A stretch of DNA of 64,000 nt from Sheuella amnicola (GTDB lineage Bacteria; Pseudomonadota; Gammaproteobacteria; Burkholderiales; Burkholderiaceae_B), in assembly GCF_010499255.1 (NCBI RefSeq), contig NZ_JAAGRN010000001.1:1-64000 (forward strand), in the 5' to 3' direction. Both the position numbers and the translations under genes were made by a program. Within the stretch, counting starts at the first letter, position 1. The number at the start of each line of letters is the position of its first letter. A model generated the notes under the pieces. It searched no databases. It was given only the letters and a program-made list of their open reading frames with translations, and had not been told where the DNA came from. Positions 16,179-39,828 of this stretch are shown piece after piece.

Positions 16179-17207
16179 TTACTCCGGCTGTATATTCGCT
16201 TCTAGTGCGACTTTACGATAACGTGCATTTTCATCCTGGATGTACTTTCTGAATTCCGCCGGTGTGGACGGTGAGGGCTGAACGCCACTCTTGGCAAAAT
16301 TCTGTTTGATTTCGTCTGTCTGCAAAATCTTGACTACGGCCTGATTAAGTTTATTGACAATTTCAGGTGGCGTCCCCGCTGGTGCTAGCAGCCCTTGCCA
16401 CGATGATGCTTCGAAGCCTTTAATGGCGGTATCGGATACCGTATCGAACTCGGGAGCGATGTCCAGTTTCTTGTCGGACGTAACAGCCAGGCCGCGAACC
16501 CTGCCGCCACGCACTTGATTGATCAAGGTGGAAAAGGGGTCAATCATAAAATTGATCTGTCCACCCATCAGCGCCTCGATTGCAGGTGAGCTACCTTTGA
16601 AAGGAACATGCGTCATCTTGACTCCCAAGCTGCCAGTGAACGCCTCGGTGATCAACTGGTATGAACTACCGGATGTGCCGTAGAAAATTTCACCCGGCGG
16701 CTTAGTCTTCACGTATGCGATGAGTTCGGCGATGTTTTTGGCCGGAACATTATTGTTGACAGCAACAATCAAAGGCTGTTTTGCAACCATCGATATTTGT
16801 TCGAAGCTTTTGACCGGATCGTAATCCATGCTTTTGAACATGACCGAATTCGTGGCCAAAGGCGCAATGCCGGCCATCAGCAGGGTGTAACCATCCGGAG
16901 CGGCTTTGGCAACTAAGGCACAACCGATCATTCCACTTGCGCCGGGTTTGTTTTCGACGATAACGGTTTGTCCGAGTTCGGCTGACAACTTGCTTGCAAC
17001 CGTGCGTCCCATCACGTCGGTGATGCCGCCGGCGGCAAAGGGCACGATGATCCTGATTGGCTTGTCCGGATAAGCAGCCATGGCTGGCGCGCTGCAAAGT
17101 GTCAGTGCGGCAACGCAGGCAAGCATCGCACGCCTTCGAGAGATTGAATGACCGGCCGCTGCACCGATGCTTTCGTATCGTTTATTTAGTGTTTTCGATT
17201 TTTTCAT
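16179..17207 (-). CDS. Bug/TctC-family substrate-binding protein
   Basis: The 342-residue periplasmic receptor belongs to the tripartite tricarboxylate transporter (Bug) family. The signal region carries SRRRAMLACVAALTL, which could be Tat or Sec. The mature start YPDKPIRIIVPFAAGG and the loop VIVENKPGASG are hallmark positions, and YGTSGSSYQL and FKGSSPAIEALMGGQI are also family-typical. Such proteins bind small carboxylates or related ligands, and paralogues are very numerous in Alcaligenaceae. No TctA or TctB membrane genes are nearby. It is divergent from the oxygenase operon, so it may supply or sense that pathway's substrate; this is inference. Confidence 0.9.
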   Translation of the reverse strand: MKKSKTLNKRYESIGAAAGHSISRRRAMLACVAALTLCSAPAMAAYPDKPIRIIVPFAAGGITDVMGRTVASKLSAELGQTVIVENKPGASGMIGCALVAKAAPDGYTLLMAGIAPLATNSVMFKSMDYDPVKSFEQISMVAKQPLIVAVNNNVPAKNIAELIAYVKTKPPGEIFYGTSGSSYQLITEAFTGSLGVKMTHVPFKGSSPAIEALMGGQINFMIDPFSTLINQVRGGRVRGLAVTSDKKLDIAPEFDTVSDTAIKGFEASSWQGLLAPAGTPPEIVNKLNQAVVKILQTDEIKQNFAKSGVQPSPSTPAEFRKYIQDENARYRKVALEANIQPE

Positions 17208-17352: not shown

Positions 17353-17386
17353 AAAATTCTAATATTCTCGAATCTTGGAGACAAAC

Positions 17387-17842
17387 GTGAACTTTCTACA
17401 AAAATATTACGACGAGATCGAGGTTGGTGACAGCTATCGATCCAGAGGTCGCACCATCACTGAGGCCGATATCGTCCAGTGGTGTTCATACACGGGTGAC
17501 TGGTATGTGCTGCATAGCAATGAGCACTATGCCGCGCAGACAAGATTCGGCCAGAGGATTGCGCCGGGATTGTTGGTGCTGGCTTACGCCGCGGGACTTG
17601 GCGTACCGCCGGATGCTCCTTCGATCGTGGCCAATTATGGAACGGATCGCTTGCGCTTTGTGGCACCTGTATTTATCGGCGACACAATTCATTTACGGTC
17701 GGCAGTCGTCGAGAAAACCACAAAACGTGAAGGACGCGATGGCGTTCTCAAACTCGACTGGAACGTGCATAACCAAGACGGCACGTTGGTGATGAGCAGT
17801 GATCTGCAGATTCTGATGAGTTTTTCTGGAGCGGCAAAATAA
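17387..17842 (+). CDS. MaoC-like (R)-specific enoyl-CoA hydratase
   Basis: The 151-residue hot-dog-fold protein belongs to the MaoC dehydratase family, which adds water across an enoyl-CoA double bond. The catalytic Asp and His are kept in YTGDWYVLHSNEHYA (Asp 38, His 43). The start is GTG at 17387, with GGAG 7-10 bases upstream; no ATG fits. It is the first gene of the diiron-oxygenase operon, and its TAA overlaps the next ATG by one base. In the phenylacetate pathway a MaoC domain (in PaaZ) hydrolyses the oxepin ring, so a ring-opening or hydration step is a plausible role here. Confidence 0.83.
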   Translation: MNFLQKYYDEIEVGDSYRSRGRTITEADIVQWCSYTGDWYVLHSNEHYAAQTRFGQRIAPGLLVLAYAAGLGVPPDAPSIVANYGTDRLRFVAPVFIGDTIHLRSAVVEKTTKREGRDGVLKLDWNVHNQDGTLVMSSDLQILMSFSGAAK

Positions 17843-18612
17843 TGACAACCGAAGCGTTACGTTTGGAGCTTGCGGGTGGTGTAGCCAACATCGTGATCGA
17901 CCGTCCCGAAAAAAAGAATAGCCTGACCGTGGATCAAATGGGGCAAGTTGGAACGTTTGTCGAGCAAGCAGTTGAGAAGGGTGCACGCTGCATCGTCATT
18001 AAAGGTGTGTCGGATGTTTTTTCGGCAGGCAGGGATTTGCAGGGTGTGGACACCCAAAATGAGGATACGCTGGCGATCATTCGCGAAGTGATTAATCCAT
18101 CTCTGGCAAAAGTCAGAAATTGTCCGGTGCCGACGATTGCATCCGTGAAAGGTCCGGCGCTTGGTTTCGGATTTGGATTGGCCCTGGCTTGCGACATGAC
18201 CTATGCCGCCGATAACGCTTTACTGGGCAGTCCATTTCGCAATATTGGCTTGATTCTCGATTCGGGCGGCCACTTTTATTTGAAGGATCGTGTGGGCGCA
18301 CACCGGGCGGCTGAGATCATTTTTACCGGAAAGATGTTTTCGGGTAAAGACGCGGCAAAAATGGGATTGATCAATCGCAGCCTGGGGGCGATGGATCTTG
18401 ATGAGTTCGTGCAAGCCCTGGCGCGATCAATTGCAAGCGGTCCGACCGCGGCTTTCAAGGCGACAAAAGAAATACTGGCTTGCGGCGACGGTTACGACGC
18501 CATGGCTGAGCTTGAAGCGCATCACCAGTCGACTTTGATACGCGGTGAAGATGGTACCGAAGGAATTCGCGCATTTCAGGAAAAGCGCAAGCCGAAATTC
18601 GTTGGCCGCTAA
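17842..18612 (+). CDS. Crotonase-family protein, PaaG-like isomerase
   Basis: The 256-residue product has the enoyl-CoA hydratase/isomerase fold with the oxyanion-hole segments SAGRDLQG and GPALGFGFG. The two catalytic glutamates of true enoyl-CoA hydratases are absent: GCEL is replaced by GFGL, and QPE by SPF. An Asp sits at position 140 in GLILDSGG, matching the Asp used by PaaG (1,2-epoxyphenylacetyl-CoA isomerase, GLxPDCGG). This argues for an isomerase acting on a ring epoxide or shifting a double bond, not a simple hydratase. It is second in the operon. Confidence 0.85.
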   Translation: MTTEALRLELAGGVANIVIDRPEKKNSLTVDQMGQVGTFVEQAVEKGARCIVIKGVSDVFSAGRDLQGVDTQNEDTLAIIREVINPSLAKVRNCPVPTIASVKGPALGFGFGLALACDMTYAADNALLGSPFRNIGLILDSGGHFYLKDRVGAHRAAEIIFTGKMFSGKDAAKMGLINRSLGAMDLDEFVQALARSIASGPTAAFKATKEILACGDGYDAMAELEAHHQSTLIRGEDGTEGIRAFQEKRKPKFVGR

Positions 18613-18640
18613 TAATTAAACCAAAGCAGGGAGACAAAAT

Positions 18641-19981
18641 ATGAATCGAAACGAATGCCCGCATCTTGCGTTGGATTTCGCGGATCGGGAAACGGTCATT
18701 GCTACGCAGAACGTGAAGCTGGCCGCCATGGGGCAACGTCTTAAAAATCATCCCGAGTGGAAAGAGCATCTTAAAACTGCTGGTGCGACCCCTTTGGATT
18801 TGATGAATCGGGATAATCTGGCACACATACCTACGTTACAGAAATCGGATTTGAGGGCGCGCTATCCCTACCCGATGCTGACTGCCCCCATCCGCGATGT
18901 GGCGCGATTCTGCGCGACATCTGGTACGACGGGGTTGCCGGTTCTTTTCGGATTCACCAAACATGACTGGGAAGTGACACTAGTCAGGCAGTTGACGCGA
19001 ATTTTTCGCACAGTAGGCATGACTGCAGACGATTTGGTTTACCAAGGCTACGGTTACGGACTGTGGATCGGAGGCTCATCAATGGATGAGGCGTTTCGTC
19101 ATTACGGCATGACCAATTTTCCGGTCGGTCCGGGACGTGGCGAGTTGATGGCTACATGGCTGAAAGATCACAAATACACCGCAACCACAATGTCGCCCCT
19201 ATGGTTGTCTACGCTCATCGGCCACGCGCGCAAGGCGGGCATCAATCCGAAAACCGATTGGGCGCTGCGTGTTGGCTTGTTTGGTGGCCAGTCGGTTTCG
19301 ACCGCGTTTCGCAATGAGCTTGAAGCCCAAATGCCTCCCGGTTTCAAAGCACACAATATTTACGGCACGACCGAAGCAGGCGGACCGATCCTGTCAATAT
19401 CCTGCGATCATTCGCACGCTAGCGATGAGATGCATTTGATAAACGATGACACGGTGCTGACCGAAATTCTTGATCCGGTGACGCTAAAACCCGTGTCGCC
19501 CGGGGAGGTTGGCGAAGTCGTGGTGACAACGCTGGACAAAGAGGCATCGCCCGTTTTGAGGTGGCGCACACACGATCTTGTTCGACTGTCTAAAAATCCA
19601 TACTCATGTGCGTGCGGGCGCAATGGCTATCCGTTGATCGGTCGCATCATCGGCAGATCGGACGACATGCTTAAAGTTCGCGGTGTAATGGTTTATCCCT
19701 CTCAGATCGAAGAAATCATCGCAGGCGTGAAAGGCACCACCAAAGAGGCTTGGCAGATATACGTCGACAGTCAGGAGAAAGAGTTGGGCCAGATCGAGGT
19801 CGCGATCGAGCGCATCGCTGGTGCAGCTGCGTCTGTCGCCGATCTGGAGCAGGAAGTGCAAGGGCAACTGAAATCCCGACTGGGACTGACCTGCACGGTG
19901 GTTTGTCATGAGGAGGGGGCATTGCCGCGTTACGAAGCTAAAGCGACGCGTGTGCTGATGCGTCCGCCAAAGTCTAAATAG
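18641..19981 (+). CDS. Phenylacetate-CoA ligase family enzyme (PaaK-like)
   Basis: The 446-residue adenylate-forming enzyme would convert a carboxylic acid to its CoA thioester with ATP. The phosphate-binding CATSGTTGLP lies at 91-100, YGTTEAGGP (the A5 motif) in the middle, and RTHDL with GRSDDMLKVRG near the hinge. A cysteine pair CACG precedes the hinge, as in PaaK relatives. Length fits PaaK (430-445). It is the only ligase in the operon, so it should fix the pathway's entry substrate. Phenylacetate itself is unlikely, because PaaABCD-type oxygenase genes are missing. A strong GGGAGA ribosome-binding site precedes the ATG. Confidence 0.87.
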   Translation: MNRNECPHLALDFADRETVIATQNVKLAAMGQRLKNHPEWKEHLKTAGATPLDLMNRDNLAHIPTLQKSDLRARYPYPMLTAPIRDVARFCATSGTTGLPVLFGFTKHDWEVTLVRQLTRIFRTVGMTADDLVYQGYGYGLWIGGSSMDEAFRHYGMTNFPVGPGRGELMATWLKDHKYTATTMSPLWLSTLIGHARKAGINPKTDWALRVGLFGGQSVSTAFRNELEAQMPPGFKAHNIYGTTEAGGPILSISCDHSHASDEMHLINDDTVLTEILDPVTLKPVSPGEVGEVVVTTLDKEASPVLRWRTHDLVRLSKNPYSCACGRNGYPLIGRIIGRSDDMLKVRGVMVYPSQIEEIIAGVKGTTKEAWQIYVDSQEKELGQIEVAIERIAGAAASVADLEQEVQGQLKSRLGLTCTVVCHEEGALPRYEAKATRVLMRPPKSK

Positions 19982-20024
19982 TTTTGCTGTCGCATCTGTC
20001 ATTTAAAAATCAGGAGAATGCAAC

Positions 20025-21116
20025 ATGAATTCAGTCAACGATAAATTGGGCAATCTGGCCTCTTCGATTCAGGAACCGCCTGAAAAACTTACAGAAGTCA
20101 CCGATCTTGAAAAATTATTATTCGAAACGGGCGAGGCTCCCGTCATCGAAAAGAAAAATATCTTCCCGCTCGAATGGAATGTGCAAACGCCCAAGCTCTA
20201 CGATATCTATGATGGCGCGCGCGATCCGGGTTGGGCGCCGAACAAGTTGCCCTGGGATACCTTGGATCCGAGCAAGTTTACGCAAGACCAACGCTACGCT
20301 ATTGCCTATTGGTTTTCGTTGTTGTCTGTGTTTGACGGGTCCGGTCCGGTCGTGTTCGCACGCGCAATGATCTATACCTACGAAGCCAAAGAAGAAGATC
20401 CAATTCGTAAATGCTTTTTCTCTGTCGTACGCGACGAGATGAATCACGAGGAAATTTGCGGTCGTGCAATCAAAGCGATGACCCCGAACGGTCCGCTTGG
20501 ATACGAGCCGACTACACCACTTGGCAAACTTGCGCGCAACAACGTCGAATGGCTTTACTACAACGGATCGCGCTACTGGAAGGGCTTTAATGCCGCAGTG
20601 GACAAGTACTCATTACCGATTTTGTTTACTTCATTCTTGTTTGGCGAGGTCGCTTCCAGCACGCTGTTTCATGGCATGTACGAGAAGACAACCATTCCGG
20701 TATTCAAGGAGGCATTCAAGCGTATTGGCCAGGACGAGGGACGTCATCTGGGCATCTGTTTGGCCGTGTTGCAAAAACTATTGCCACAATTGACACCTGA
20801 GGACAAGGAAATGATTACCTTGCAGTTGCGCGCCGGGTTCGTGTTCCTTTCCGGTATTTTGTTCGAGCCGCCAGAACATTTCTGGCAACTTCCCGAAACA
20901 TTTATTCCCGCTCAACGGGCACTGGAAGAGGTCGCACGTAGCGCAGGGCTGGGTATCCTCACGCTTGAAGAGCGCAAGGAGAACTGGAAGACTGCCGTGC
21001 TGCGTATGAAAGCCAACCTGGATCCTTATGGCATCGAGTTCCCGGCGCTGCCTGAAGTCGGAATCAGCGGCAAAGAAGTCTCTTTTGATGCTGAAAAAAT
21101 CATTCCGATTTTCTGA
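20025..21116 (+). CDS. Single-subunit ferritin-like diiron oxygenase
   Basis: The 363-residue product shows the carboxylate-bridged diiron pattern: Glu 138 and His 141 (RDEMNHEE), Glu 208 (FLFGEVASS) and Glu 238 with His 241 (GQDEGRHLG). Glu 120 or Asp 104 could be the remaining ligand. Two ExxH pairs about 100 residues apart in a helical protein are typical of BoxB, PaaA and ribonucleotide-reductase-like oxygenases. It is shorter than BoxB (about 470) and lacks the PaaB, PaaC and PaaD partners. It is placed between a CoA ligase and a ferredoxin reductase, so I infer an epoxidase or hydroxylase acting on a CoA-bound acid. A good GGAG site precedes the ATG at 20025. I cannot name a characterised orthologue. 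Confidence 0.8.
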   Translation: MNSVNDKLGNLASSIQEPPEKLTEVTDLEKLLFETGEAPVIEKKNIFPLEWNVQTPKLYDIYDGARDPGWAPNKLPWDTLDPSKFTQDQRYAIAYWFSLLSVFDGSGPVVFARAMIYTYEAKEEDPIRKCFFSVVRDEMNHEEICGRAIKAMTPNGPLGYEPTTPLGKLARNNVEWLYYNGSRYWKGFNAAVDKYSLPILFTSFLFGEVASSTLFHGMYEKTTIPVFKEAFKRIGQDEGRHLGICLAVLQKLLPQLTPEDKEMITLQLRAGFVFLSGILFEPPEHFWQLPETFIPAQRALEEVARSAGLGILTLEERKENWKTAVLRMKANLDPYGIEFPALPEVGISGKEVSFDAEKIIPIF

Positions 21117-21130
21117 GGATTTTTCATATC

Positions 21131-22138
21131 ATGAGCGAATCCAAAGTCACTGTTTTGAATAATGGCATCGTATTCGATGTCCCATTCGATCAGTGCATTC
21201 TCGATGCGGGCCTGGCAAAAGGGATCGCCTTGCCGCATCAGTGCCGCGGGGCATCTTGCGGTCAGTGTAAGGCTCACATCGAGCATGGCACGGTCGATCA
21301 CGGCTGGTCCTTCGGATTTGCCATTACGGACGAAGAAAAAGAGCAGGGCTATTGTTTAATGTGTCAGGCCCATCCGACCAGTCCTGAGCTTTCGATTCGA
21401 ACCGTAGAACCTTTTGGCGAAGCGATTGCGCCTGTTGTTCAATTACAAGGTCAAGTCGTCGCGATCGAGCAATTGAATCATCGAGTGCGTCGTATCATTG
21501 TGCAGACGTCAAATGCTGCGCAGTTATTCAGGCCGGGAGCCTATGCTGAAATTGAATTGCCTGGTATCACTCCTAACCGAATGTACAGTTATTCGAACGG
21601 GGCGACTGATGCCGGTCAGTTGGAATTTTTGGTATCGTTGCACCCTGGTGGAAAAGCCAGCACTTATCTTCACGAACAATTGCGTGTGGGTCAGGTCATT
21701 GACTTGAAAGGTCCCTTCGGTACTTGCCGGTTGCCTGAGGGAAATTGGAATGTCCTGGGTATGGCGGGTGGTACGGGCTTGGCGCCGGTTATTTCGATTT
21801 TCGAGCATGCTCTCGCATCCGGAGCCACTGAAGATTTCTTATTGTTGTTCAGCGTGCTGAAAGACGCTGATGTTTTCGAGTTGGCGCGGTTGAATCGATT
21901 ACAAATGGCTTATCCGAATTTTAAATACGAGATGGTTGTCGCTGAAGCGCCCAGTGTATTTTGCGCGCAGACCGGTCTGATTACGGAGTATTTGCGTAGC
22001 AGATTCGACTCGTTGCAAGGATGGCGCGCGGTGCTTTCCGGGTCTCCCGGTTTTGTCGATGCTGCCACCACGGCATGCGTCGATCTCGGAATGGCTCAAG
22101 ATGCAATGTCGGCCGATAGTTTCACGAATGTCGCTTAG
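21131..22138 (+). CDS. Ferredoxin-FAD-NAD(P)H oxygenase reductase
   Basis: The 335-residue product has an N-terminal 2Fe-2S ferredoxin domain (CRGASCGQC and a later Cys in GYCLMCQAH), then an FAD-binding barrel (RMYSYSN) and an NAD-binding domain (GMAGGTGLAPV). This order matches reductases of soluble di-iron monooxygenases and ring dioxygenases. PaaE has the ferredoxin at the C-terminus, so this is a different type. It would move electrons from NAD(P)H to the diiron protein encoded 14 bases upstream. It is well formed and complete. Confidence 0.9.
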   Translation: MSESKVTVLNNGIVFDVPFDQCILDAGLAKGIALPHQCRGASCGQCKAHIEHGTVDHGWSFGFAITDEEKEQGYCLMCQAHPTSPELSIRTVEPFGEAIAPVVQLQGQVVAIEQLNHRVRRIIVQTSNAAQLFRPGAYAEIELPGITPNRMYSYSNGATDAGQLEFLVSLHPGGKASTYLHEQLRVGQVIDLKGPFGTCRLPEGNWNVLGMAGGTGLAPVISIFEHALASGATEDFLLLFSVLKDADVFELARLNRLQMAYPNFKYEMVVAEAPSVFCAQTGLITEYLRSRFDSLQGWRAVLSGSPGFVDAATTACVDLGMAQDAMSADSFTNVA

Positions 22139-22150
22139 GAACGCTCTTTC

Positions 22151-22738
22151 ATGGCCCGCACAAAGTCTAATGAGTTCGATAGCATCAAGGATCACATACT
22201 GATCTGTGCGACTGGACTTTTTGCGAAGAAAGGATTTTCGAATACGAACATCATCGAGATTGGTCAGGCCTGTCAGGCTTCGAAGTCCAGGATGTATCAC
22301 TATTTTCCATCCAAAGACTCCATGCTCGAAGAGATGCTGCATACGCACGTTCAAGAGCTGCTCCAGCTGGTTTCCGCACTGACTGAGCGTCAGGGGGATC
22401 CGAAAGAGACTTTCGAAGTGTTCATTCGTACTCACCTTGAATACTATTTCGAACATAGCGAGCGTCATTCCGTCATGATTCAGGATGCGGACAATCTGAC
22501 GCCGGATGCGCGTAAAGAACTTAAATCGGCCGAACTCAAGCTTGTCGAATGTTTGACAAGTATTTTGCAGAAATTAAATGCCAAGCGGTTTAGCGACAGG
22601 GATGTGACGTTTTCAAATGCCATGCTGATCTATGGCATGCTCAACTGGACCTACACCTGGTACAAGCCCTCGGATCGCATGTCGTTCGAAAAATTAGCCG
22701 CAGAGGCAACGAGTCTTTGTCTGAACGGAATTCTCTGA
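22151..22738 (+). CDS. TetR-family transcriptional regulator
   Basis: The 195-residue product has an N-terminal helix-turn-helix (FAKKGFSNTNIIEIGQACQA, then SKSRMYHYFPSK) and a variable C-terminal ligand domain. TetR proteins in such operons usually repress until an acyl-CoA or acid intermediate binds, as PaaR does. It is the last gene of the catabolic operon, 12 bases after the reductase. It probably controls its own operon and perhaps the ABC importer that starts 190 bases downstream. Confidence 0.9.
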   Translation: MARTKSNEFDSIKDHILICATGLFAKKGFSNTNIIEIGQACQASKSRMYHYFPSKDSMLEEMLHTHVQELLQLVSALTERQGDPKETFEVFIRTHLEYYFEHSERHSVMIQDADNLTPDARKELKSAELKLVECLTSILQKLNAKRFSDRDVTFSNAMLIYGMLNWTYTWYKPSDRMSFEKLAAEATSLCLNGIL

Positions 22739-22930
22739 TTGGTTTAATCGATTAGGGCGTAGTTAGCAAAAAAAGGTTAGTAGCAAGTTAGTCGGTGTAT
22801 GGCTGTATAGGGTTTATCTTGATATATATATCCAGTTGTTTAACGAATAATTGACCAAATAGAAGATTAATGCGGAGACGCAGGAATTCTCACGGTTGTA
22901 AAAATTTGAAAAATTTTGGTGGAGACTCAC

Positions 22931-24082
22931 ATGATTCGTAGATCTTTTTGTAAAACACTTGCAGCAACTGCCATCCTGGCTACCAGCTTCGGCGTCTCGG
23001 CCCAGAACGCCCCGATCAAGATCGGAGCGGTTCTATCCGTGACCGGTCCGGCATCTTATCTGGGTGACCCTGAGCTCAAAACGCTTCAAACATATGTGGA
23101 AAAGATCAATGCCGAAGGTGGAGTCATCGGACGCAAGATCGAATTGATCCACTATGACGACGGTACCGAAGCAGGCAAGGCCAATAGCTTTGCAAAGCGC
23201 CTGATCGAATCCGACAAAGTTGATTTCATTATCGGTGGTACGACTACGGGCGCGACCATGGCAATGGTTCCGCTCGTCGAAAAAGCAGAAATTCCATTTA
23301 TTTCTCTGGCCGGTGCGGTTGTGGTGATCGAGCCTGTTAAGAAATGGGTATTCAAGACTCCACACACGGATCGTATGGCTGCAGAAAAAGTGTTCGCCGA
23401 CATGAAAAAACGTGGCATCACCAAGATCGCGCTTTTGTCCGATACGGGTGGCTTTGGTCAGTCCGGCCGCAAAGAAGCTAAGGGCGTTATCGATAAGTAT
23501 GGCATTACGCTTGTCGCCGACGAGACCTATGGTCCAGCCGATACCGATGTGACGACCCAGTTAACCAAGATTAAGGGAACGCCTGGCGTACAGGCAATCT
23601 TTGTATTTGGTTTTGGTCAGGGCTCTGCCGTGGCCACCAAAAACTACGGCCAGTTAGGTATCACCGTTCCTATGTATCAGTCGCATGGCGTAGCATCGAA
23701 TGAATACATCACGCTGTCAGGCAAGGCAGCCGAAGGTGTACGTATGCCGACGCCCGCTTTGCTGGTCGCCAATTCGCTGCCCGATAATGATCCGCAAAAG
23801 CCTGTTGTGGTTGGTTACGACAAAACTTATCGCGACAAGTACAAGGCCGATCCATCGACTTTTGGCGGCTATGCCTACGATGCGCTTTATTTAGCCGTCA
23901 ACGCAATCAAGAAGGCAGGCTCGACAGACAAGGCCAAAGTACGTGATGCACTTGAACAGACTGCCGGTTTTATCGGAACTACGGGTAAGTTCAACATGAC
24001 TGCTAAAGATCACATGGGTCTGGATCTGTCGGCTTTCCGCATTGCTGAAGTGCGTAATGGCGCATGGAAGTTGCTTGACTGA
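22931..24082 (+). CDS. Branched-chain-type ABC transporter substrate-binding protein
   Basis: The 383-residue type I periplasmic binding protein (Peripla_BP_6) is the receptor of a LIV-type ABC importer. A signal peptide (RRSFCKTLAATAILATSFGVSAQ) is followed by IKIGAVLSVTGPASYLGDPE, the normal mature start. Paralogues bind branched-chain amino acids, urea, amides or aromatic acids; the ligand here is probably the acid consumed by the upstream operon. I chose ATG at 22931 with GGTGGAG upstream; a TTG at 22916 is in frame. The 190-base gap before it suggests its own promoter. Confidence 0.88.
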   Translation: MIRRSFCKTLAATAILATSFGVSAQNAPIKIGAVLSVTGPASYLGDPELKTLQTYVEKINAEGGVIGRKIELIHYDDGTEAGKANSFAKRLIESDKVDFIIGGTTTGATMAMVPLVEKAEIPFISLAGAVVVIEPVKKWVFKTPHTDRMAAEKVFADMKKRGITKIALLSDTGGFGQSGRKEAKGVIDKYGITLVADETYGPADTDVTTQLTKIKGTPGVQAIFVFGFGQGSAVATKNYGQLGITVPMYQSHGVASNEYITLSGKAAEGVRMPTPALLVANSLPDNDPQKPVVVGYDKTYRDKYKADPSTFGGYAYDALYLAVNAIKKAGSTDKAKVRDALEQTAGFIGTTGKFNMTAKDHMGLDLSAFRIAEVRNGAWKLLD

Positions 24083-24131
24083 AGCGCGATTCAAGCATGA
24101 TCGAATCTGATCGTCACGATAGAGGCAGAGC

Positions 24132-25007
24132 ATGACAGCCGAGTTTTTGCAGTTTCTGTTTTCCGGGATTACGGTGGGAGCAGCGTATGCTTTGGCTGCG
24201 CTTGGTTTCACCATCATCTATAACACCAGTGGCGTGATTAACTTTGCCCAAGGCGAGTTCATCATGCTGGGCGGAATGCTGTCAGCTGCATTACTGGCTT
24301 TTGGTTTGCCTCTTTATCTGGCGATCGCAGTGGCTGTCGTAGCGACAGGTGTAGTGGGTCTGATTGTCGAGAAATTGGTGATCGAACCCGCCAAAAATAC
24401 CGACGTGATCGGTTTGATCATCATCACGATTGGCGCTTCTCTGGCTATTCGCGGATGTGTGCAGGTTTGGATGGGCAAGGGAAATCGCACACTGCCGAGT
24501 TTTTCAGGTGACGCGCCTTTGAAAATTTTCGATGCCAGCTTATTGCCCCAGAGCTTGTGGGTATTGGGGGTTGCTTTTGTCATTGTTTTATTGCTTGGCT
24601 GGTTTTTCGGTAAAACCGTGATGGGTAAATCGATGCTGGCCACTTCCTATAACAAGCTGGCTGCTCAGTTGATGGGTATCAACACTAAATTCATTTTGTT
24701 TTTATCCTTTGGACTTTCAGCGATTCTTGGTGCGATTGGTGGTGCGATTCTCGCTCCTATCACTTTCACGTCCTATGACGTGGGCATTATGCTGGGGTTA
24801 AAGGGGTTTGTCGCCGCAGTGTTAGGCGGCATGGGCAGTGGTGCCGCAGTGGTCGCCGGTGGACTATTGCTTGGCATCGCCGAAGCGATGGCCGCAGGCT
24901 ACATCTCATCCTCGTACAAGGATGCAGTCCCGTTTTTGTTGATTTTGTTGATCTTATTTTTCCGACCCAACGGTTTGTTCGGCGCGAAATCTTCGGAGCG
25001 TGTATGA
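24132..25007 (+). CDS. LIV-type ABC permease (LivH-like)
   Basis: The 291-residue membrane protein has eight or so hydrophobic helices and the family-typical YALAALGFTIIYNTSGVINFAQGEF beginning (given here as the segment near residues 18-42). It forms half of the translocation channel with the LivM-like partner. The stop overlaps the next start by four bases (ATGA), as in most such operons. It follows the receptor gene by about 50 bases. The name denotes family only, since the substrate is unknown. Confidence 0.9.
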   Translation: MTAEFLQFLFSGITVGAAYALAALGFTIIYNTSGVINFAQGEFIMLGGMLSAALLAFGLPLYLAIAVAVVATGVVGLIVEKLVIEPAKNTDVIGLIIITIGASLAIRGCVQVWMGKGNRTLPSFSGDAPLKIFDASLLPQSLWVLGVAFVIVLLLGWFFGKTVMGKSMLATSYNKLAAQLMGINTKFILFLSFGLSAILGAIGGAILAPITFTSYDVGIMLGLKGFVAAVLGGMGSGAAVVAGGLLLGIAEAMAAGYISSSYKDAVPFLLILLILFFRPNGLFGAKSSERV

Positions 25008-25960
25008 CTAACCCGTTTTCGAACGCAAAGGGGTGGAGCCGCTATACAGGGCTACTGTTGTTGGTCGCCATACTTGTGGCGATCCCCTTGTTGTTATCCA
25101 ATAAGTTTTATTTCGATGTGGTTATACGCATCGCGATTAACGCGATTATCGTGATCGGCTTAAATCTTTTGCTCGGTTATGCCGGTCAGCTTAGCCTGGG
25201 GCATGCTGCGTTTTTTGGCATAGGTGCTTATGCATCAGCGGTTTTATCCGGGCCCTTCGGTTGGCCGCCTTTGTTGGCATTGGTGACGGGAGCGGCAGCA
25301 GTCGGTTTGCTGGCGTTCATCGTTGCACGTCCGATTCTCAAGCTTAAGGGTTACATGCTTGCAATGGCTACGCTGGGACTTGGCATCATTATTTCCATCG
25401 CGATTAACAACGAAACACAGTGGACTGGCGGTCCCGATGGCGTCTCCGTCCCTTCGCTGGAAATCTTTGGCTGGACTGTCTCGGGTGACTTGAACTGGTA
25501 CATACTGATCTCGAGCCTTCTTGTACTTGTCGTATGGGGCGCATTGAATCTGATTGATTCACCTGGAGGCAGGGCGCTACAGGCACTGCATGGATCGGAA
25601 GTTGCCGCACGTGTGGTCGGCGTTCAAACCAGCAGATTCAAATCGCGTATTTTTGTTTTGTCGGCTGTGATCGCCAGTGTGGCCGGTAGCTTAACCGCGC
25701 ATTATGTTGGCTTCATCACGCCCGGAATTGCAGGATTTTTTCACTCGATTGAACTGGTCACGATGGTGGTGGTTGGTGGAATGGCCTCGGTGTTCGGCTC
25801 TGTTGTCGGTGCGGCGTTGCTGACGTTATTGCCGCAGTTGCTTGTCAGTTTTGATGGATGGGAAACAGTTGTGTATGGCGTCATCCTGATGTCCACCATG
25901 CTGTTCATGCCCAAGGGTCTTGTGCCTACGCTGGCCAAACGTTTCGGGCAGCGGGGATAA
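25004..25960 (+). CDS. LIV-type ABC permease (LivM-like)
   Basis: The 318-residue polytopic membrane protein pairs with the LivH-like subunit. Family marks are LLLGYAGQLSLGHAAFFGIG near residues 54-75 and the EAA-type loop around ALHGSEVAARVVGV. Helix count and length are normal. The gene ends 5 bases before the ATPase start. It is part of a complete five-gene importer, and its likely job is uptake of the acid activated by the PaaK-like ligase; that link is inferred from gene order. Confidence 0.9.
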   Translation: MTNPFSNAKGWSRYTGLLLLVAILVAIPLLLSNKFYFDVVIRIAINAIIVIGLNLLLGYAGQLSLGHAAFFGIGAYASAVLSGPFGWPPLLALVTGAAAVGLLAFIVARPILKLKGYMLAMATLGLGIIISIAINNETQWTGGPDGVSVPSLEIFGWTVSGDLNWYILISSLLVLVVWGALNLIDSPGGRALQALHGSEVAARVVGVQTSRFKSRIFVLSAVIASVAGSLTAHYVGFITPGIAGFFHSIELVTMVVVGGMASVFGSVVGAALLTLLPQLLVSFDGWETVVYGVILMSTMLFMPKGLVPTLAKRFGQRG

Positions 25961-25965
25961 GCGCC

Positions 25966-26721
25966 ATGCTAAATATACAGAACTTAAGTAAAACCTTCGG
26001 TGGCGTGAAGGCAGTGCAAAACGTTGATTTGGACGTTTCTAAAGGTTCGATTCACTCCGTAATCGGTCCGAATGGTGCGGGCAAGACGACGTTGCTGAAT
26101 CTGATGACCGGAATTTATACGCCCACAACCGGGTCGATGAAGCTCAATGATGAAAGTGTCGATGGTCTGACACCGGACGAGTTGGCCAGGCGAGGGATGA
26201 GTCGCACGTTTCAAAACCTGCAAATCTGCATGAATATGAGTGCGATCGAAAACGTCATGGTGGGGGCGCATCTGCGCCTGAACTATAGTTTGCTTGCCGG
26301 AATTTTCAGATTGCCTGCATTGAGGAAGGCTGATTCAGCGTGTCGAGATGAAGCGCGTGAGTTGATGGATTTTGTTGGCGTCGGTAAGTATGTCGATTAT
26401 GCAGCGAATCAAATGCCCTACGGTGCGTTAAAACGCCTTGAAATCGGTCGCGCGATGGCGGCGCGTCCTTCAATTCTTTTACTGGACGAACCTGCGGCCG
26501 GATTGAATCATACCGAGACCGGTGAAATCGAGGCGTTGATTGCCAAGGTTGCCGATTCAGGCGTCACGATTGTTCTGGTCGAGCACGATATGAAACTGGT
26601 TATGAATTTGTCTACTCGAATCACTGTGCTGGATTATGGCAAGAAACTTGCCGAAGGTACCCCAGCTGAAGTGCGCGCCAATCCGGAAGTGATTGCTGCC
26701 TATCTCGGACATCCGGCGTAA
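25966..26721 (+). CDS. LIV-type ABC ATPase (LivG-like)
   Basis: The 251-residue ATPase has Walker A GPNGAGKTTL, the Q-loop SRTFQNLQ, a signature region QMPYGALKRLEIGRAMA and Walker B ILLLDEPAAGL. The signature reads YGALKR where most LivG proteins have YGxQRR, a small variation. I chose ATG at 25966, just after the LivM stop; longer upstream starts would lie inside livM. It powers the importer together with LivF. Confidence 0.9.
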   Translation: MLNIQNLSKTFGGVKAVQNVDLDVSKGSIHSVIGPNGAGKTTLLNLMTGIYTPTTGSMKLNDESVDGLTPDELARRGMSRTFQNLQICMNMSAIENVMVGAHLRLNYSLLAGIFRLPALRKADSACRDEARELMDFVGVGKYVDYAANQMPYGALKRLEIGRAMAARPSILLLDEPAAGLNHTETGEIEALIAKVADSGVTIVLVEHDMKLVMNLSTRITVLDYGKKLAEGTPAEVRANPEVIAAYLGHPA

Positions 26722-26727
26722 GAGGGC

Positions 26728-27459
26728 ATGATGGTTGAGACAAATAACGGTGCCTCCATGCTTCAGGTTAGGAATCTGACGAGTCATTATGGTCGGATTC
26801 AAGCCTTGCATGGTATCGATCTGGATGTGTATGAAGGTCAATTAGTCGCGCTGGTCGGTGCCAATGGTGCCGGCAAAACGACCTTGTTGCGTGCGATTTC
26901 GGGTGTCCAGCCTGTGAGTGGTGGCAGTATGACGCTGCATGGTGCCGACATTACGAATATGTCTTCAGACAAGCGGGTGAGGGCAGGTATATGCCAGGTG
27001 CCTGAAGGGCGACAAGTGTTTGGTCCAATGACGATCGAGGACAATCTTTTGCTTGGGGCATACGTTCGTCCCAAAGGTGACCTAAGTGCCGACCTTGAAA
27101 GGATGTATGCCTTATTTCCCATCTTGAAAGAAAAACGGCAATTGCTTGCTGGCACACTGTCGGGAGGCCAACAGCAAATGCTCGCGATGGCGCGGGCCTT
27201 GATGGGACATCCTCGATTGTTGTTGCTGGATGAACCGAGCATGGGATTGGCGCCATTATTGGTTGAAGAGATTTTTCGTATCGTTGGCAGTCTAAAAGCA
27301 CAAGGCATCACGATTCTACTGGTCGAACAAAACGCTCAGGCTGCGTTAGCCATTGCCGATCACGGCTATGTGCTCGAAACAGGCATGATCAAGATTTCTG
27401 GACCGGGTGCCGATTTATTGAATAACGAAGAAGTAAAGAGCGCATATCTCGGAATGTAA
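26728..27459 (+). CDS. LIV-type ABC ATPase (LivF-like)
   Basis: The 243-residue second ATPase of the importer has Walker A GANGAGKTTL, signature LSGGQQQML and Walker B LLLLDEPSMGLAP. The C-terminus HGYVLETG is normal for LivF. Start choice is uncertain: ATG at 26728 has GAGGG just upstream, but ATG at 26758 (MLQVRNLTSH) fits the family start better. It closes the five-gene transporter block. Confidence 0.9.
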   Translation: MMVETNNGASMLQVRNLTSHYGRIQALHGIDLDVYEGQLVALVGANGAGKTTLLRAISGVQPVSGGSMTLHGADITNMSSDKRVRAGICQVPEGRQVFGPMTIEDNLLLGAYVRPKGDLSADLERMYALFPILKEKRQLLAGTLSGGQQQMLAMARALMGHPRLLLLDEPSMGLAPLLVEEIFRIVGSLKAQGITILLVEQNAQAALAIADHGYVLETGMIKISGPGADLLNNEEVKSAYLGM

Positions 27460-27486: not shown

Positions 27487-28053
27487 ATGAGATCAATCGA
27501 TATTATCCATGCCGAGCACCGGGCTTGCGGAGCTGTATTGCAGGCACTGGGATTCATGCTCGACGGAATTCGGGATGGTAAATACAAACCGGACTTCGAG
27601 CTGTTGGCGGCGATGATCGAATACATCACCGAAGTTCCCGATAAGTTGCATCATCCAAAAGAGGATGAGTATTTATTTGTTAAGATCCGTCAACGTGTGC
27701 CGCAAGCTATCGCGTTGCTAGATAAACTGATTGCCGATCATGCAGAGGGTGCGAGAAGAACCCACGCGCTTAGGGATGCGCTAGTCGCTTATGAAGCATC
27801 GGGCGATACCTATTTCAGTACATTTGAATCGATCGCACGCACGTACATCAAGTTTTCGTGGAATCATATTGCATTGGAAGAGCGCGAGTTGCTGCCAATG
27901 GCGGAAAAAGGTTTGAATCCGTCAGATTGGGCCGATATAGACGAGGCTTTTGAAGCCAATCGAGACCCATGGTCGGGGCCGACCGGTGAGTTTCAGGCTT
28001 TGTTTTCTCGCATTGTTTCAATGGTTCCGGCACCTTATGGACTGGGTTCCTGA
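27487..28053 (+). CDS. Hemerythrin-domain protein
   Basis: The 188-residue product matches the HHE/hemerythrin cation-binding family. Likely iron ligands are in IIHAEHRACG, LHHPKEDEYLF, DHAEGARRTH and FSWNHIALEERELLP, giving the expected H-HxxxE-H-HxxxE order. Such proteins bind oxygen or nitric oxide, or sense or store iron. It starts 27 bases after livF and could be read through from that operon. Its link to a diiron oxygenase operon may be meaningful, for example iron or oxygen handling, but nothing proves it. Confidence 0.82.
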   Translation: MRSIDIIHAEHRACGAVLQALGFMLDGIRDGKYKPDFELLAAMIEYITEVPDKLHHPKEDEYLFVKIRQRVPQAIALLDKLIADHAEGARRTHALRDALVAYEASGDTYFSTFESIARTYIKFSWNHIALEERELLPMAEKGLNPSDWADIDEAFEANRDPWSGPTGEFQALFSRIVSMVPAPYGLGS

Positions 28054-30633: not shown

Positions 30634-31803
30634 ATGACATTAAAAGGTAAGGCTTACATTATGGGTGCCTATGAGCATCCGACACGTTATGCGCCCGACA
30701 AGTCGGTCACGCAGTTGCATGCCGAGGCGGCCATGGGAGCGCTGCGCGATGCAGGGTTGTCGATACAGGACGTGGATGGTTATTTCTGCGCAGGAGATGT
30801 GCCGGGTTCGACACCTTTGTCGATGGCAGAGTATCTGAATTTGAATTTGAAATGGATGGATGGATCCGAGCTCGGTGGATGCTCGTACATGGTTCATGTC
30901 CGTCACGCAGCTTTGGCGATTGCCGAAGGAAAGTGCTCGGTTGCGCTGATTACGTTAGCCGGTAAGCCCAAAAGCATGGGCATGGCAACCGGAACTAAAC
31001 CGCGCGCGCTGGGACCTGAGCGCCCCGAGACTCCGTTTGATCTGCCGTATCAGACAACTATCACAGGAGTCTATGGCAATCTGGCGCAACGTCATATGTA
31101 TGAATATGGCACGACTTCCGAGCAGATTGCCGCTGTCAAAGTGGCTGCTTCAATTCACGCCCAGTACAACGAGAATGCACTGTTGCGCAAGGTTGTTTCT
31201 GTCGAGGATGTCGTGAATTCGCCGATCATCGCTTCACCTTTGCATCGCCTGGATTGTTGTGTGATTACCGATGGTGGCGGTGCGTTGATACTGACCAATG
31301 CCGAAATCGCTAAAAAATTGAATCGTCCGCGCGTGCGCGTGATAGGAACCGGCGAAACGATTAATACCAGTCGAGGTGGATATCTTGATGCGACCAGTTC
31401 TGGCGCGGCTGTGACCGGCAAGATGGCATTCGAAGAGGCCGGTGTGTCGATAAACGACATTAAGTATGCCTCTATCTATGACAACTTCACCATCATGGTG
31501 CTTATTCAGCTTGAAGATCTGGGATTCTGTAAAAAGGGACAAGCCGGCGCATTCGTCGCTGAAGGCAACTTGATTTCCGGTAAGGGTAAGTTGCCATGGA
31601 ATACCGATGGCGGTGGTCTTTGCAATAACCATCCAAACAATCGTGGGGGTATCACCAAAGTGATCGAGGCGGTTCGACAGCTCAGGGGTGAAGCACATCC
31701 CGCGGTGCAGGTTAAGAACTGCGACATCGCGCTTGCGACCGGCCCAGGCTTGGTGTTAGGTGTCGGACATGCCCACTCAACCATCATTATGGATCGCGAA
31801 TAA
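30634..31803 (+). CDS. Thiolase-superfamily protein (SCP2-thiolase/Ltp2-like)
   Basis: The 389-residue product belongs to the lipid-transfer/SCP2-thiolase group. A Cys lies at the nucleophile position (ELGGCSYMVH) and a His in LCNNHPNNRGGI, which differs from the GHPxGxSG of condensing thiolases. Several enzymes of this type with a DUF35 partner cleave beta-hydroxyacyl-CoA as aldolases rather than thiolases. The next gene, starting 3 bases later, is such a DUF35 protein, so a two-part acyl-CoA cleaving enzyme is likely. The substrate is unknown. Confidence 0.83.
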   Translation: MTLKGKAYIMGAYEHPTRYAPDKSVTQLHAEAAMGALRDAGLSIQDVDGYFCAGDVPGSTPLSMAEYLNLNLKWMDGSELGGCSYMVHVRHAALAIAEGKCSVALITLAGKPKSMGMATGTKPRALGPERPETPFDLPYQTTITGVYGNLAQRHMYEYGTTSEQIAAVKVAASIHAQYNENALLRKVVSVEDVVNSPIIASPLHRLDCCVITDGGGALILTNAEIAKKLNRPRVRVIGTGETINTSRGGYLDATSSGAAVTGKMAFEEAGVSINDIKYASIYDNFTIMVLIQLEDLGFCKKGQAGAFVAEGNLISGKGKLPWNTDGGGLCNNHPNNRGGITKVIEAVRQLRGEAHPAVQVKNCDIALATGPGLVLGVGHAHSTIIMDRE

Positions 31804-31806
31804 ATC

Positions 31807-32211
31807 ATGACTGCACAATCGACAAAAACATATCTGGACGATATTTTCGCGACTTCGTATCCCGAAAATGCGCCTTTCTGGGAAGCTGCGGCAAACAACC
31901 GTCTGCTGGTCAAGACATGCAAGACTTGTAAAAAAGCGCACTGGTATCCGCGCGTGGTTTGCCCTTTATGCGGCAGTGACGACACTGAATGGAAAGAGGC
32001 GAGTGGTCATGCCACAATTTACTCATTCAGCGTGATCGAGCGTGCCGATCCGCCTTATGTATTGGCTTACGTCGAGCTTGAAGAGGGACCGATCGCAATA
32101 ACCAATCTGGTTGATTGCGATTTCAAATCGATCAAGATCGGAGATAAGGTGAAGGTGCAGTTTCAGCAGACACCCGAGGGTCGTAGCGTCCCGGTTTACA
32201 AGCCTGTCTGA
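31807..32211 (+). CDS. DUF35 zinc-ribbon OB-fold protein
   Basis: The 134-residue product has an N-terminal zinc ribbon with two Cys pairs (CKTCKKAHWYPRVVCPLCGS) and an OB-fold starting at ATIYSFSVIER. These proteins form complexes with thiolase-like proteins and stabilise or channel acyl-CoA. It is encoded directly after the thiolase-like gene and should be its partner. Confidence 0.9.
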   Translation: MTAQSTKTYLDDIFATSYPENAPFWEAAANNRLLVKTCKTCKKAHWYPRVVCPLCGSDDTEWKEASGHATIYSFSVIERADPPYVLAYVELEEGPIAITNLVDCDFKSIKIGDKVKVQFQQTPEGRSVPVYKPV

Positions 32212-34608: not shown

Positions 34609-35592
34609 TCACTCCGGCTTCAAACCTGCTTCATCAAAGGCTTGTTTCCAGATACCAAGTTGATCCTTGGTGAAGTTTCCAAGCCATTGAGGAGTCGAGC
34701 CTTCAAGCTTAAGACCTTGTTTTTCGACGCGTTCGCGTATGTCGGGGCGACTCATCACATCTTTAAGCGCTTCGCTCATTTTTGTAGCGATTTCGGGCGG
34801 CACTTTTGCCGGACCGTACAGTGCGGCAAAGGTAGCTGGCTTTAAGGGAGGCAGGCCGGCTTCGGCAACAGTCGGCACATTGGGCAAATAAGGTACCCGC
34901 TCGGGCAACACAACCGCCAGGGCACGTAATTTGCCTTCGTTAATCTGGTTGAGTGTGCTGGTGGGTGTCGAGAATGTCAGCTGGATATGACCACCGAGAA
35001 TATCGTTGACGGTGGGACCTTCGCCCTTGTAATTCACTGCATTCATGTCCACTTTGGCCTGATCGCGAATCGAGGCGTACATCAGTTGTGTCACGCTGCT
35101 ATAACTGCCGTAATTAAGCTTGCCGGGATTGTTTTTGGCGTAAGTGATGAGTTCGGCAGCTGTTTTGACAGGTACGGTCGGATTGACGACCAGGACATAA
35201 ATGTAGCGGCCAACCAGCGAAATCGGGGTAAAGCTGGTCACGGGATTGTAGGGTGGATTCTTCTTTAGAAGCGGAACCTGCATCATTGGCGTATTGGAAG
35301 CCAGAAAAAAGGTGTGTCCGTCCGGCTCGCTTCTCAAAACATAGTCAGCAGCAATGGCGCCATCGGCGCCGGGTTTGTTTTCGATAATGACTGTTTGGCC
35401 AAGTTTCGTTGTCAAAGCTTGTGCCAACACTCGGGCAACGACATCAGTTGATCCACCGGGTGGAAACTGCAAGACAATACGAATAGGCTTACTCGGCCAT
35501 GCTTGCGCCTGGGCGATTGCAGGCAGACACATCGCACTTGTGGCAAGTGCAACGGTGCTGACTATTTGCTTGAAAAAAGTGCGTTTTTTCAT
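34609..35592 (-). CDS. Bug/TctC-family substrate-binding protein
   Basis: The 327-residue periplasmic receptor has a Sec signal (MCLPAIAQAQA), then WPSKPIRIVLQFPPGGSTDV and VIIENKPGADG, the standard Bug positions. NYKGEGPTVNDILGGHIQL and the C-terminal KPATFAALYGPAKVPPE part are also typical. It is encoded 21 bases downstream of a DctA-like symporter gene on the same strand, so the two may bring in related organic acids. No TctA or TctB genes are near. Confidence 0.9.
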   Translation of the reverse strand: MKKRTFFKQIVSTVALATSAMCLPAIAQAQAWPSKPIRIVLQFPPGGSTDVVARVLAQALTTKLGQTVIIENKPGADGAIAADYVLRSEPDGHTFFLASNTPMMQVPLLKKNPPYNPVTSFTPISLVGRYIYVLVVNPTVPVKTAAELITYAKNNPGKLNYGSYSSVTQLMYASIRDQAKVDMNAVNYKGEGPTVNDILGGHIQLTFSTPTSTLNQINEGKLRALAVVLPERVPYLPNVPTVAEAGLPPLKPATFAALYGPAKVPPEIATKMSEALKDVMSRPDIRERVEKQGLKLEGSTPQWLGNFTKDQLGIWKQAFDEAGLKPE

Positions 35593-38817: not shown

Positions 38818-39828
38818 ATGTTCGAGATACAAAAAACAATCAAACGCTATGCAGGCCTTTCGGTTTTATCGATGCTTTCGGTCGGTTTGACGATTACTGC
38901 GGGTACTGCCTGCGCTCAGGCAGAAAAATGGCCTGAAAGAGCGGTCAAAATCATTGTGCCTGCTCCACCCGGAAGCGCCCCGGATGGTCTAGTGCGCATG
39001 TTTGCCCAGAAATTTTCCGTGATGTGGGGACAAACAGTCACTGTTGAAAATATCGTGGGCGCCTCGGGCAACATCGGAACGGATCGTGCAGCCAAGTCAC
39101 CTGCGGATGGATACACCTTATTGTTCAATACGATGGGACCGATTTCGGTCAATTACACCTTGTTTAAAGGCAAATTACCCTATGATCCGGTGAAAGATCT
39201 TGCTCCGATCAGCCTCATCGCCAAGATGCCTAACTTTGTGACAGTACACCCGAAGTTACCGGTGAATTCGGTAGCCGAATTGATCGCTCTTGCCAAAAAA
39301 GAGCCTGGCAAATTGCGTTACGGCACAGCGGGTCCGGGTACGACACAGCACTTGTCGGGTGAGCTGCTCAATTTGCGTGAAAGTATCAAGTTGACTGCTA
39401 TTCCGTATAAGTCCAGTGCGCAAATGACGACCGATGCGATAGGTGGCCAGATCGAGATCATGTTCCATAATGCTCCCGTAGTGTTGCCTCATATCAAGTC
39501 GGGAGCACTCAAGGCGCTTGCGATCACGAGTGCGACTAGATCGCCCTCCGCGCCAGATGTCCCGACCATGGCCGAGGCGGGTGTTCCCAACTTCGAAATC
39601 ACGGCCTGGTTTGGCTTCATGGCGCCGGCGGGCACTCCCAGGCCAATTATTCAAAAAATATCGGCCGATGCCGCTAAGGTCATTGCAATGCCGGATGTGC
39701 GCGATAGCATTCTGGCCAAGGCAACTGTCCCTGTTTCATCCACCCCTGAAGAATACGCAGCATTCATTCAGTCCGAAATTAAAAAATGGAGTGAAGTCGT
39801 CAAGTTGACCAATATGCAAGTGGATTGA
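38818..39828 (+). CDS. Bug/TctC-family substrate-binding protein
   Basis: The 336-residue periplasmic receptor has a signal ending ACAQAEK and a mature start KWPERAVKIIVPAPPGSAPDG. Then come TVENIVGASGNIGTDRAAK and YGTAGPGTTQHLSGELL, typical Bug elements. It follows the AtuA pair by 31 bases, with a GGAGACA ribosome-binding site, so it probably belongs to that operon and delivers its substrate. The ligand is not predictable. Confidence 0.9.
   Translation: MFEIQKTIKRYAGLSVLSMLSVGLTITAGTACAQAEKWPERAVKIIVPAPPGSAPDGLVRMFAQKFSVMWGQTVTVENIVGASGNIGTDRAAKSPADGYTLLFNTMGPISVNYTLFKGKLPYDPVKDLAPISLIAKMPNFVTVHPKLPVNSVAELIALAKKEPGKLRYGTAGPGTTQHLSGELLNLRESIKLTAIPYKSSAQMTTDAIGGQIEIMFHNAPVVLPHIKSGALKALAITSATRSPSAPDVPTMAEAGVPNFEITAWFGFMAPAGTPRPIIQKISADAAKVIAMPDVRDSILAKATVPVSSTPEEYAAFIQSEIKKWSEVVKLTNMQVD

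Follow-up and report, generated by a model that had tools for sequence, protein, structure and literature searches.

A predicted CoA-dependent pathway for an arylacetic acid in Sheuella amnicola, with a candidate single-polypeptide diiron oxygenase

The window analyzed in this study, a 64,000-nucleotide stretch at the start of contig NZ_JAAGRN010000001.1 of Sheuella amnicola (Burkholderiales), carries an operon in which a 363-residue diiron protein and a reductase are encoded together with a ligase for coenzyme A (CoA), a PaaG-like protein, and a MaoC-type hydratase. The operon probably specifies aerobic breakdown, by a CoA-dependent ("hybrid") route, of some arylacetic acid that is not phenylacetate itself; sequence and gene context are the basis of every proposed reaction and of the substrate. 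A wider proposal, to which we give slightly less than an even chance, concerns a diiron family unrelated by detectable sequence to PaaA/PaaC or BoxB. In this proposal, the family epoxidizes arylacetyl-CoA with one polypeptide and a reductase and took over from PaaABCDE in certain phenylacetate degraders, and a second clade, found in the window and in Variovorax next to a dedicated ligase, isomerase, and hydrolase, would serve a separate pathway for an arylacetic acid with a hydroxylated or heterocyclic aryl group, which may come from tyrosine or tryptophan.

RESULTS AND DISCUSSION

Enzymes of the operon and proposed pathway

Open reading frames and Pfam matches in the window define 12 genes on the same (+) strand between positions 17387 and 28053, separated by gaps of -4 to +49 bp, with the exception of 177 bp ahead of the importer genes (counted from a TTG at 22916). 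The first six genes are as follows.

17387..17842 (+), MaoC-type hydratase with a GTG start, proposed oxepin-CoA hydrolase (Pfam MaoC, 83.5 bits)
17842..18612 (+), PaaG-like crotonase-family protein, proposed epoxide-to-oxepin isomerase (ECH_1, 163 bits)
18641..19981 (+), PaaK-like CoA ligase, proposed for an arylacetic acid (247 of the 646.3 bits of the PaaK cutoff)
20025..21116 (+), diiron protein of 363 amino acids, proposed single-polypeptide arylacetyl-CoA oxygenase (conserved ExxH pairs, borderline AurF match)
21131..22138 (+), ferredoxin-flavin adenine dinucleotide (FAD)-nicotinamide adenine dinucleotide (NAD) reductase, proposed electron donor (Fer2, FAD_binding_6, and NAD_binding_1)
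22151..22738 (+), TetR-family regulator (TetR_N and TetR_C_24)

An earlier sequence-only reading of this DNA had named these genes and the importer genes, and their positions and strand are confirmed. The MaoC gene starts, as in that reading, at the GTG at 17387, which follows a GGAGA motif, whereas the automatic open reading frame call used the TTG at 17375. The range given there, 17387 to 27459, is right at its start; the run continues with a hemerythrin gene. Promoter-like (5 versus 6.5) and terminator-like (10 versus 7.6) sites were about as numerous as in shuffled sequence.

The best solved relative of the MaoC protein is PaaZ (E value of 1.8e-23), whose Asp...His pair is kept, and its score is below the PaaZ cutoff of NCBIfam (112 of 562.8 bits). 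The crotonase-family protein reaches 156 of the 345 bits required for PaaG and is 32 to 33% identical to the aligned PaaG rows; its Asp140 is the aspartate common to those rows, and there is no glutamate at either hydratase position, both kinds of position being presumably catalytic. The ligase has PaaK (PDB accession number 2y4o) as its best match of known structure, with an E value of 3.6e-59, and is 31 to 34% identical to true PaaK rows. The best NCBIfam scores of the reductase are those for MmoC (191 of 500 bits) and BenC (183.5 of 430 bits), and PaaE gives 86.8 of 420.8 bits. The window holds a CoA ligase, an oxygenase with its reductase, an isomerase, and a ring hydrolase, as far as these roles can be assigned by resemblance.

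In the pathway that we propose, the importer would take up the acid, which would be converted to arylacetyl-CoA by the PaaK-like ligase. The diiron protein, reduced by the adjoining reductase, would take the part of PaaABCDE and epoxidize the ring; the epoxide would then be turned into an oxepin-type ring by the PaaG-like protein, and the MaoC protein would open this ring hydrolytically. The resulting aldehyde would be oxidized by a PaaN-type semialdehyde dehydrogenase, encoded within the operon in two Variovorax relatives and in a separate paa locus in the host, and beta-oxidation would follow. The TetR protein would regulate the operon, and the hemerythrin may buffer oxygen. Epoxidation followed by isomerization, as in the sequence-only reading, is what we infer from the PaaG-type aspartate, the PaaZ-like MaoC protein, and PaaN in the two relatives, which together fit an epoxide, an oxepin, and hydrolytic ring opening.

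Conservation of the operon in Variovorax

When 72,556 plasmid records were searched with the diiron protein by tblastn, six matches were obtained, three of them in Variovorax at 77 to 79% identity. On these three replicons (VAI-C, RA8, and PDNC026, the last being unannotated and read from its open reading frames), the order MaoC, crotonase, ligase, diiron protein, and reductase is kept, with genes for an OB-fold protein and a thiolase inserted between the crotonase and the ligase; loss of this order, which the sequence-only reading had named as a reason to abandon its proposal, was thus not found. In alignments with VAI-C and RA8, the window proteins are 69 to 70% (MaoC), 55 to 58% (crotonase), 67 to 68% (ligase), 80 to 81% (diiron protein), and 50% (reductase) identical, and tblastn with PDNC026 gave 71% for MaoC, 70% for the ligase, and 78% for the diiron protein. 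The same three Variovorax replicons were the only plasmid records matched by the ligase at an E value of 1e-60. The RA8 operon is headed by a TetR gene whose product is 53% identical to that of the window.

PaaN is encoded inside the VAI-C and PDNC026 operons, and only in these two, with scores of 624.7 and 609.9 bits against a cutoff of 578.75. All three Variovorax operons are followed by genes for an FAD-linked oxidase and an indolepyruvate ferredoxin oxidoreductase (scored in VAI-C only), and HppD is also found downstream in VAI-C. These downstream genes suggest arylpyruvates, and hence arylacetyl-CoA, in Variovorax. The acid, left as aromatic or heterocyclic by the sequence-only reading, can be narrowed to the class of arylacetic acids, within which the evidence does not discriminate between 4-hydroxyphenylacetate and indole-3-acetate.

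About 3 kb downstream of the operon, the window has a thiolase-like gene (30634-31803) and a gene for a ChsH2-type OB-fold protein (31807-32211) side by side. This pair echoes that of the Variovorax operons but is poorly conserved with it; the products are 41 to 43% and 22 to 24% identical to their respective counterparts, and we rejected the two genes as part of the pathway.

Association with phenylacetate genes

Close relatives of the diiron gene were collected from 13 loci, namely, the window, L001, six loci in other genomes of our set (G038, G218, G111, G205, G172, and G584), the three Variovorax replicons, Nonomuraea, and Vitreoscilla. Six of the 13 lie near paa genes: those of G218, G111, G205, G172, and Vitreoscilla are beside them or one gene away, and that of G038 is within 10 kb. 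The reductase gene directly follows the diiron gene in 10 loci; among the others, G111 has an open reading frame of the same size, which was not compared, L001 is at a contig end, and none was seen in Nonomuraea.

Within 300 Burkholderiales genomes, close relatives occur in 6, including that of S. amnicola; 3 further matches at 23 to 24% identity, none from a genome where PaaG or PaaA passed the thresholds applied, were left out of this count. All six are among the 63 genomes that have PaaG at an E value of 1e-95 (Fisher's exact test, P = 7e-5, with kinship ignored). PaaA/PaaC (PF05138) is present in three of the six (S. amnicola, G038, and G218), whereas G111, G205, and G172, with completeness values of 100, 99, and 99%, gave no PF05138 match even at 1e-3 and carry clusters of paaN and paaG alongside the diiron-reductase pair. 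Because these three genomes have the pair but no protein of the PaaA/PaaC family, the pair appears to substitute for PaaABCDE.

The clearest of these cases is G205, a single contig, in which PaaN (917.6 bits, cutoff of 578.75), PaaG (368.9, 345.15), PaaH (697, 669.4), PaaI (169.7, 118.9), PaaK (701.9, 646.3), and a PcaF-type thiolase (725.8, 597) all exceed their cutoffs. In the stretch from 316 to 346 kb, the pair is the sole candidate oxygenase recognized by eye, in a genome where BoxB was not searched for; a homoprotocatechuate dioxygenase set is located at the far end of the stretch.

PaaG proved unsuitable as the sole marker of the pathway and was rejected in that use: 21 of the 63 PaaG genomes are without PaaA/PaaC at 1e-30, and only 5 of these 21 have PaaN above its cutoff. 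The diiron protein is found in three of the five; G187 and G211 are the other two. In G187, a divergent PaaA_PaaC protein of 265 amino acids (73 bits) is encoded between PaaN and PaaG (L032, 7866-8663; G187:C8:148000-167000) and is possibly yet another oxygenase replacement, and G211 has only a 19-bit PaaA_PaaC match.

Two loci have other surroundings. The G584 pair (L025, 9836-12017; L026) is located, by eye, in a same-strand run after Rieske, DUF1302-like, DUF1329-like, major facilitator superfamily, and meta-cleavage-type genes, hinting at another substrate, and PaaA/PaaC is encoded elsewhere in that genome. The actinomycete Nonomuraea gerenzanensis has a 55% identical relative (L030, 11962-12984), and no reductase or paa genes were recognized beside its gene.

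Iron ligands and family relations of the diiron protein

The ExxH pairs at residues 138-141 and 238-241, reported by the sequence-only reading, are borne out: Glu138/His141, Glu208, and Glu238/His241 are invariant in all 12 rows of an alignment of 11 close relatives (window protein included) and one protein at 23% identity. The alignment thus shows the two ExxH pairs and the further carboxylate expected of a ferritin-like or R2-like diiron carboxylate protein. Asp104 aligns with a glutamate that is invariant in all three rows of the 23%-identity subfamily, and we propose it as the iron ligand of helix 1. This subfamily (L016, 9773-10678; L009; L010), which itself looks uncharacterized, keeps the same presumptive iron ligands; by eye, the L016 gene adjoins a TctC-like gene.

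Placement in a characterized family, which would have spoken against the sequence-only reading, was not observed. The diiron protein has no NCBIfam match at an E value of 1e-3; up to E = 10, an R2-like oxidase model gave 15.2 bits (cutoff of 194) and a cyclase model 10.9 bits (cutoff of 391), and BoxB (TIGR03225) was not among the matches. The PaaA_PaaC family of Pfam was not matched at 1e-3. In hhalign comparisons, the diiron profile scored 99.3% with the 23%-identity subfamily of other Burkholderiales, 0.2% with PaaA and 0.1% with PaaC (four rows each), and 0.2% with BoxB (three rows), alignments of 3 to 11 rows being small enough that distant homology to PaaA, PaaC, or BoxB is still possible. 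A search of the PDB with the 12-row profile placed R2 and R2-like oxidases at the top (best E value of 1.8e-4) over most of the helical core, and the names PaaA, PaaC, and BoxB were absent among its 28 matches up to E = 10. The single-sequence search gave three matches, none believable (best E value of 0.37), and an AlphaFold2 model from two rows (window and L001) was too poor for a fold search (predicted local distance difference test score of 41.6). No relative was found in viral contigs. In a tree with a long-branch warning and several weak forks, the window protein groups with Variovorax (97/94) and then with L001, a metagenome-assembled genome labeled Alphaproteobacteria (91/95), and this clade is apart from the diiron proteins of paa clusters. 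The diiron oxygenase family looks uncharacterized, and no paper recognized as describing it was found in searches of the open-access literature.

With the AurF model of Pfam, the window protein falls marginally short of the cutoff (29.4 of 29.6 bits, residues 114-304), L001 (69% identical; 31.3 bits) passes it, and all 12 rows of the alignment match at E = 0.1. An AurF-type enzyme might oxygenate a substituent, such as an amino group or side chain, or hydroxylate the ring, with no epoxide or oxepin formed. We consider this unlikely, since ring epoxidation fits better with the PaaG- and PaaZ-like neighbors, PaaN in two operons, and the paa clusters devoid of PaaA/PaaC. It is quite improbable that the protein is noncatalytic and ferritin-like, with a function in the handling of iron, peroxide, or oxygen. 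Such a role would account for the weak Rubrerythrin matches (22.1 bits for the window and 25.4 for L001, cutoff of 22.8) and for the encapsulin ferritin-like models that other family members match, along with R2-like models, at about 1e-4 to 1e-3, the ferritin-like cargo at about 1e-4 in the wider set; on the other hand, the adjacency of the reductase gene in most loci, the three diiron-positive paa genomes that have no PaaA/PaaC for oxygenation, and the R2-type oxidases as best solved matches all favor an oxygenase.

Importer, hemerythrin, and neighboring genes

The remaining six genes of the operon are as follows.

22931..24082 (+), LIV-type solute-binding protein (Peripla_BP_6, 213.8 bits)
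24132..25007 (+), LIV permease livH (BPD_transp_2, 131.8 bits)
25004..25960 (+), LIV permease livM (BPD_transp_2, 127.1 bits)
25966..26721 (+), LIV ATPase livG (ABC_tran and BCA_ABC_TP_C)
26728..27459 (+), LIV ATPase livF (ABC_tran), 67% identical to its G218 homologue
27487..28053 (+), hemerythrin (HHE) protein (Hemerythrin, 59.4 bits)

The binding-protein gene likely starts at the ATG at 22931 rather than at the TTG at 22916, and the livG start was taken as the ATG at 25966. Identities of the binding protein are 67 to 68% with its counterparts in the G205 and G218 paa clusters, 58% with a Variovorax boronicumulans protein encoded next to genes for an indolepyruvate oxidoreductase and an alpha-hydroxy-acid oxidase, 55% with a protein from a paa cluster of Paracoccus, and 48% with a Pseudosulfitobacter protein whose gene adjoins paa genes. 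These identities fit an importer of the arylacetate type. In Pseudosulfitobacter, a 335-amino-acid "hypothetical protein" suspected as another oxygenase was found to be PaaX-like instead.

The hemerythrin gene begins 27 bp past livF. In G218 and G111, a single open frame encodes a hemerythrin domain together with LivF, and the window protein is 36% identical to that domain of G218. Genes with hemerythrin motifs are described in benzoate clusters in PMC6449761, which suggests a function in protection or oxygen storage.

A TctC-type binding protein (Pfam) is encoded at 16179-17207 (-), divergently from the operon, and two more were recognized by eye at 34609-35592 (-) and 38818-39828 (+).

The host paa locus and the nature of the substrate

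The sequence-only reading held that neither the paa nor the box set is present, which is true of the window and, for BoxB, of the whole host genome; a canonical paa locus is, however, found on contig 6. Its products exceed their cutoffs for PaaA (540 bits against 280), PaaC (276, 133), PaaE (451, 421), PaaN (880, 579), PaaK (742, 646), and PaaG (427, 345). Since the host has PaaABCDE and its PaaK is 31% identical to the operon ligase, the simplest reading is that the operon acts on another substrate, and we take it to be probably a further epoxy-CoA route, dedicated to a different arylacetic acid. The third kind of CoA-dependent oxygenase that had been suggested is still the best reading, with PaaN in two Variovorax operons and three paa clusters devoid of PaaA/PaaC behind it, in a host that also has PaaABCDE.

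The diiron protein might instead be a second phenylacetyl-CoA oxygenase, used for example at another oxygen level, in which case the operon would serve phenylacetate beside the host PaaABCDE. The pair does occur with paaABC in G218, G038 (within about 20 kb), and Vitreoscilla, the importer resembles those of paa clusters, and hemerythrin next to LivF may indicate oxygen handling. However, the operon itself supplies a ligase, an isomerase, and a hydrolase, the first two being distant from the PaaK and PaaG rows, and the window protein belongs to a different clade from the paa-cluster diiron proteins. We regard this alternative as having a modest chance at best.

Several observations weigh against the pathway and the replacement of PaaABCDE that we propose. 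The operon itself is without a dehydrogenase gene, and that of RA8 is without PaaN. G187 and G211 have PaaN but are missing both the diiron protein and canonical PaaA/PaaC, G172 has no PaaK at 1e-100, G038, G218, and Vitreoscilla hold the pair and PaaABC together, and the diiron genes of G584 and Nonomuraea are outside paa contexts. The family is rare: it was found in 2 of 398 Pseudomonadota genomes (S. amnicola and G584), 1 of 369 genomes of the class (S. amnicola), and 2 of the 6 genomes from the family to which G205 belongs. Finally, identity to the binding protein encoded in the Vitreoscilla paa cluster is low (34%), and the Variovorax operons have a different importer, with a binding protein at 29% identity. 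The importer, given as the pathway's own in the sequence-only reading, is not conserved with the enzymes and, judged by these comparisons, is outside the conserved core.

Significance

PaaA and PaaC are genomic markers of aerobic phenylacetate breakdown. A 2026 survey (PMC13186573) reports both in every one of 825 ligase proteomes, which had first been selected by colocalization with PaaABCDE, and configurations lacking PaaABCDE are mentioned there in paralogue contexts, e.g., in Cupriavidus; the term "diiron" is absent from its main text. A survey filtered in this way would miss a genome of the G205 type, whose paa set is full but which lacks PaaA/PaaC. Another oxepin-CoA hydrolase, in bacteria with a separate dehydrogenase, is reported in PMC9007349. 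The operon suggests, on the strength of its gene content, an overlooked way of attacking aromatic rings. If the proposal is true, a difficult dearomatization would be performed with two proteins instead of four or five, the epoxy-CoA strategy would gain a third kind of oxygenase beside those of paa and box, and the second clade would open a directly testable pathway for an arylacetic acid.

Comparison with known systems

The operon shares with the paa system (PaaABC(D)E) the types of its ligase, isomerase, and hydrolase and, in two Variovorax relatives, PaaN, whereas it has one diiron polypeptide and a BenC/MmoC-like reductase in place of PaaA to PaaE, and its ligase, crotonase, and MaoC proteins score far below the PaaK, PaaG, and PaaZ cutoffs. 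In the box pathway, a CoA-bound aromatic substrate is attacked by the diiron protein BoxB. The operon is predicted to combine the same kind of substrate with a diiron protein; however, BoxB has about 475 amino acids and a profile of its own, and no similarity to it was found for the 363-residue protein. AurF, which acts on the amino group of aminobenzoate, is approached by the borderline Pfam match, whereas the diiron gene of the operon adjoins genes for a CoA ligase, an isomerase, a hydrolase, and a reductase of its own. R2 and R2-like ligand-binding oxidases are the top profile matches of known structure, at E values of 1.8e-4 and weaker, and are very distant, the window protein reaching less than a tenth of the R2-like oxidase cutoff.

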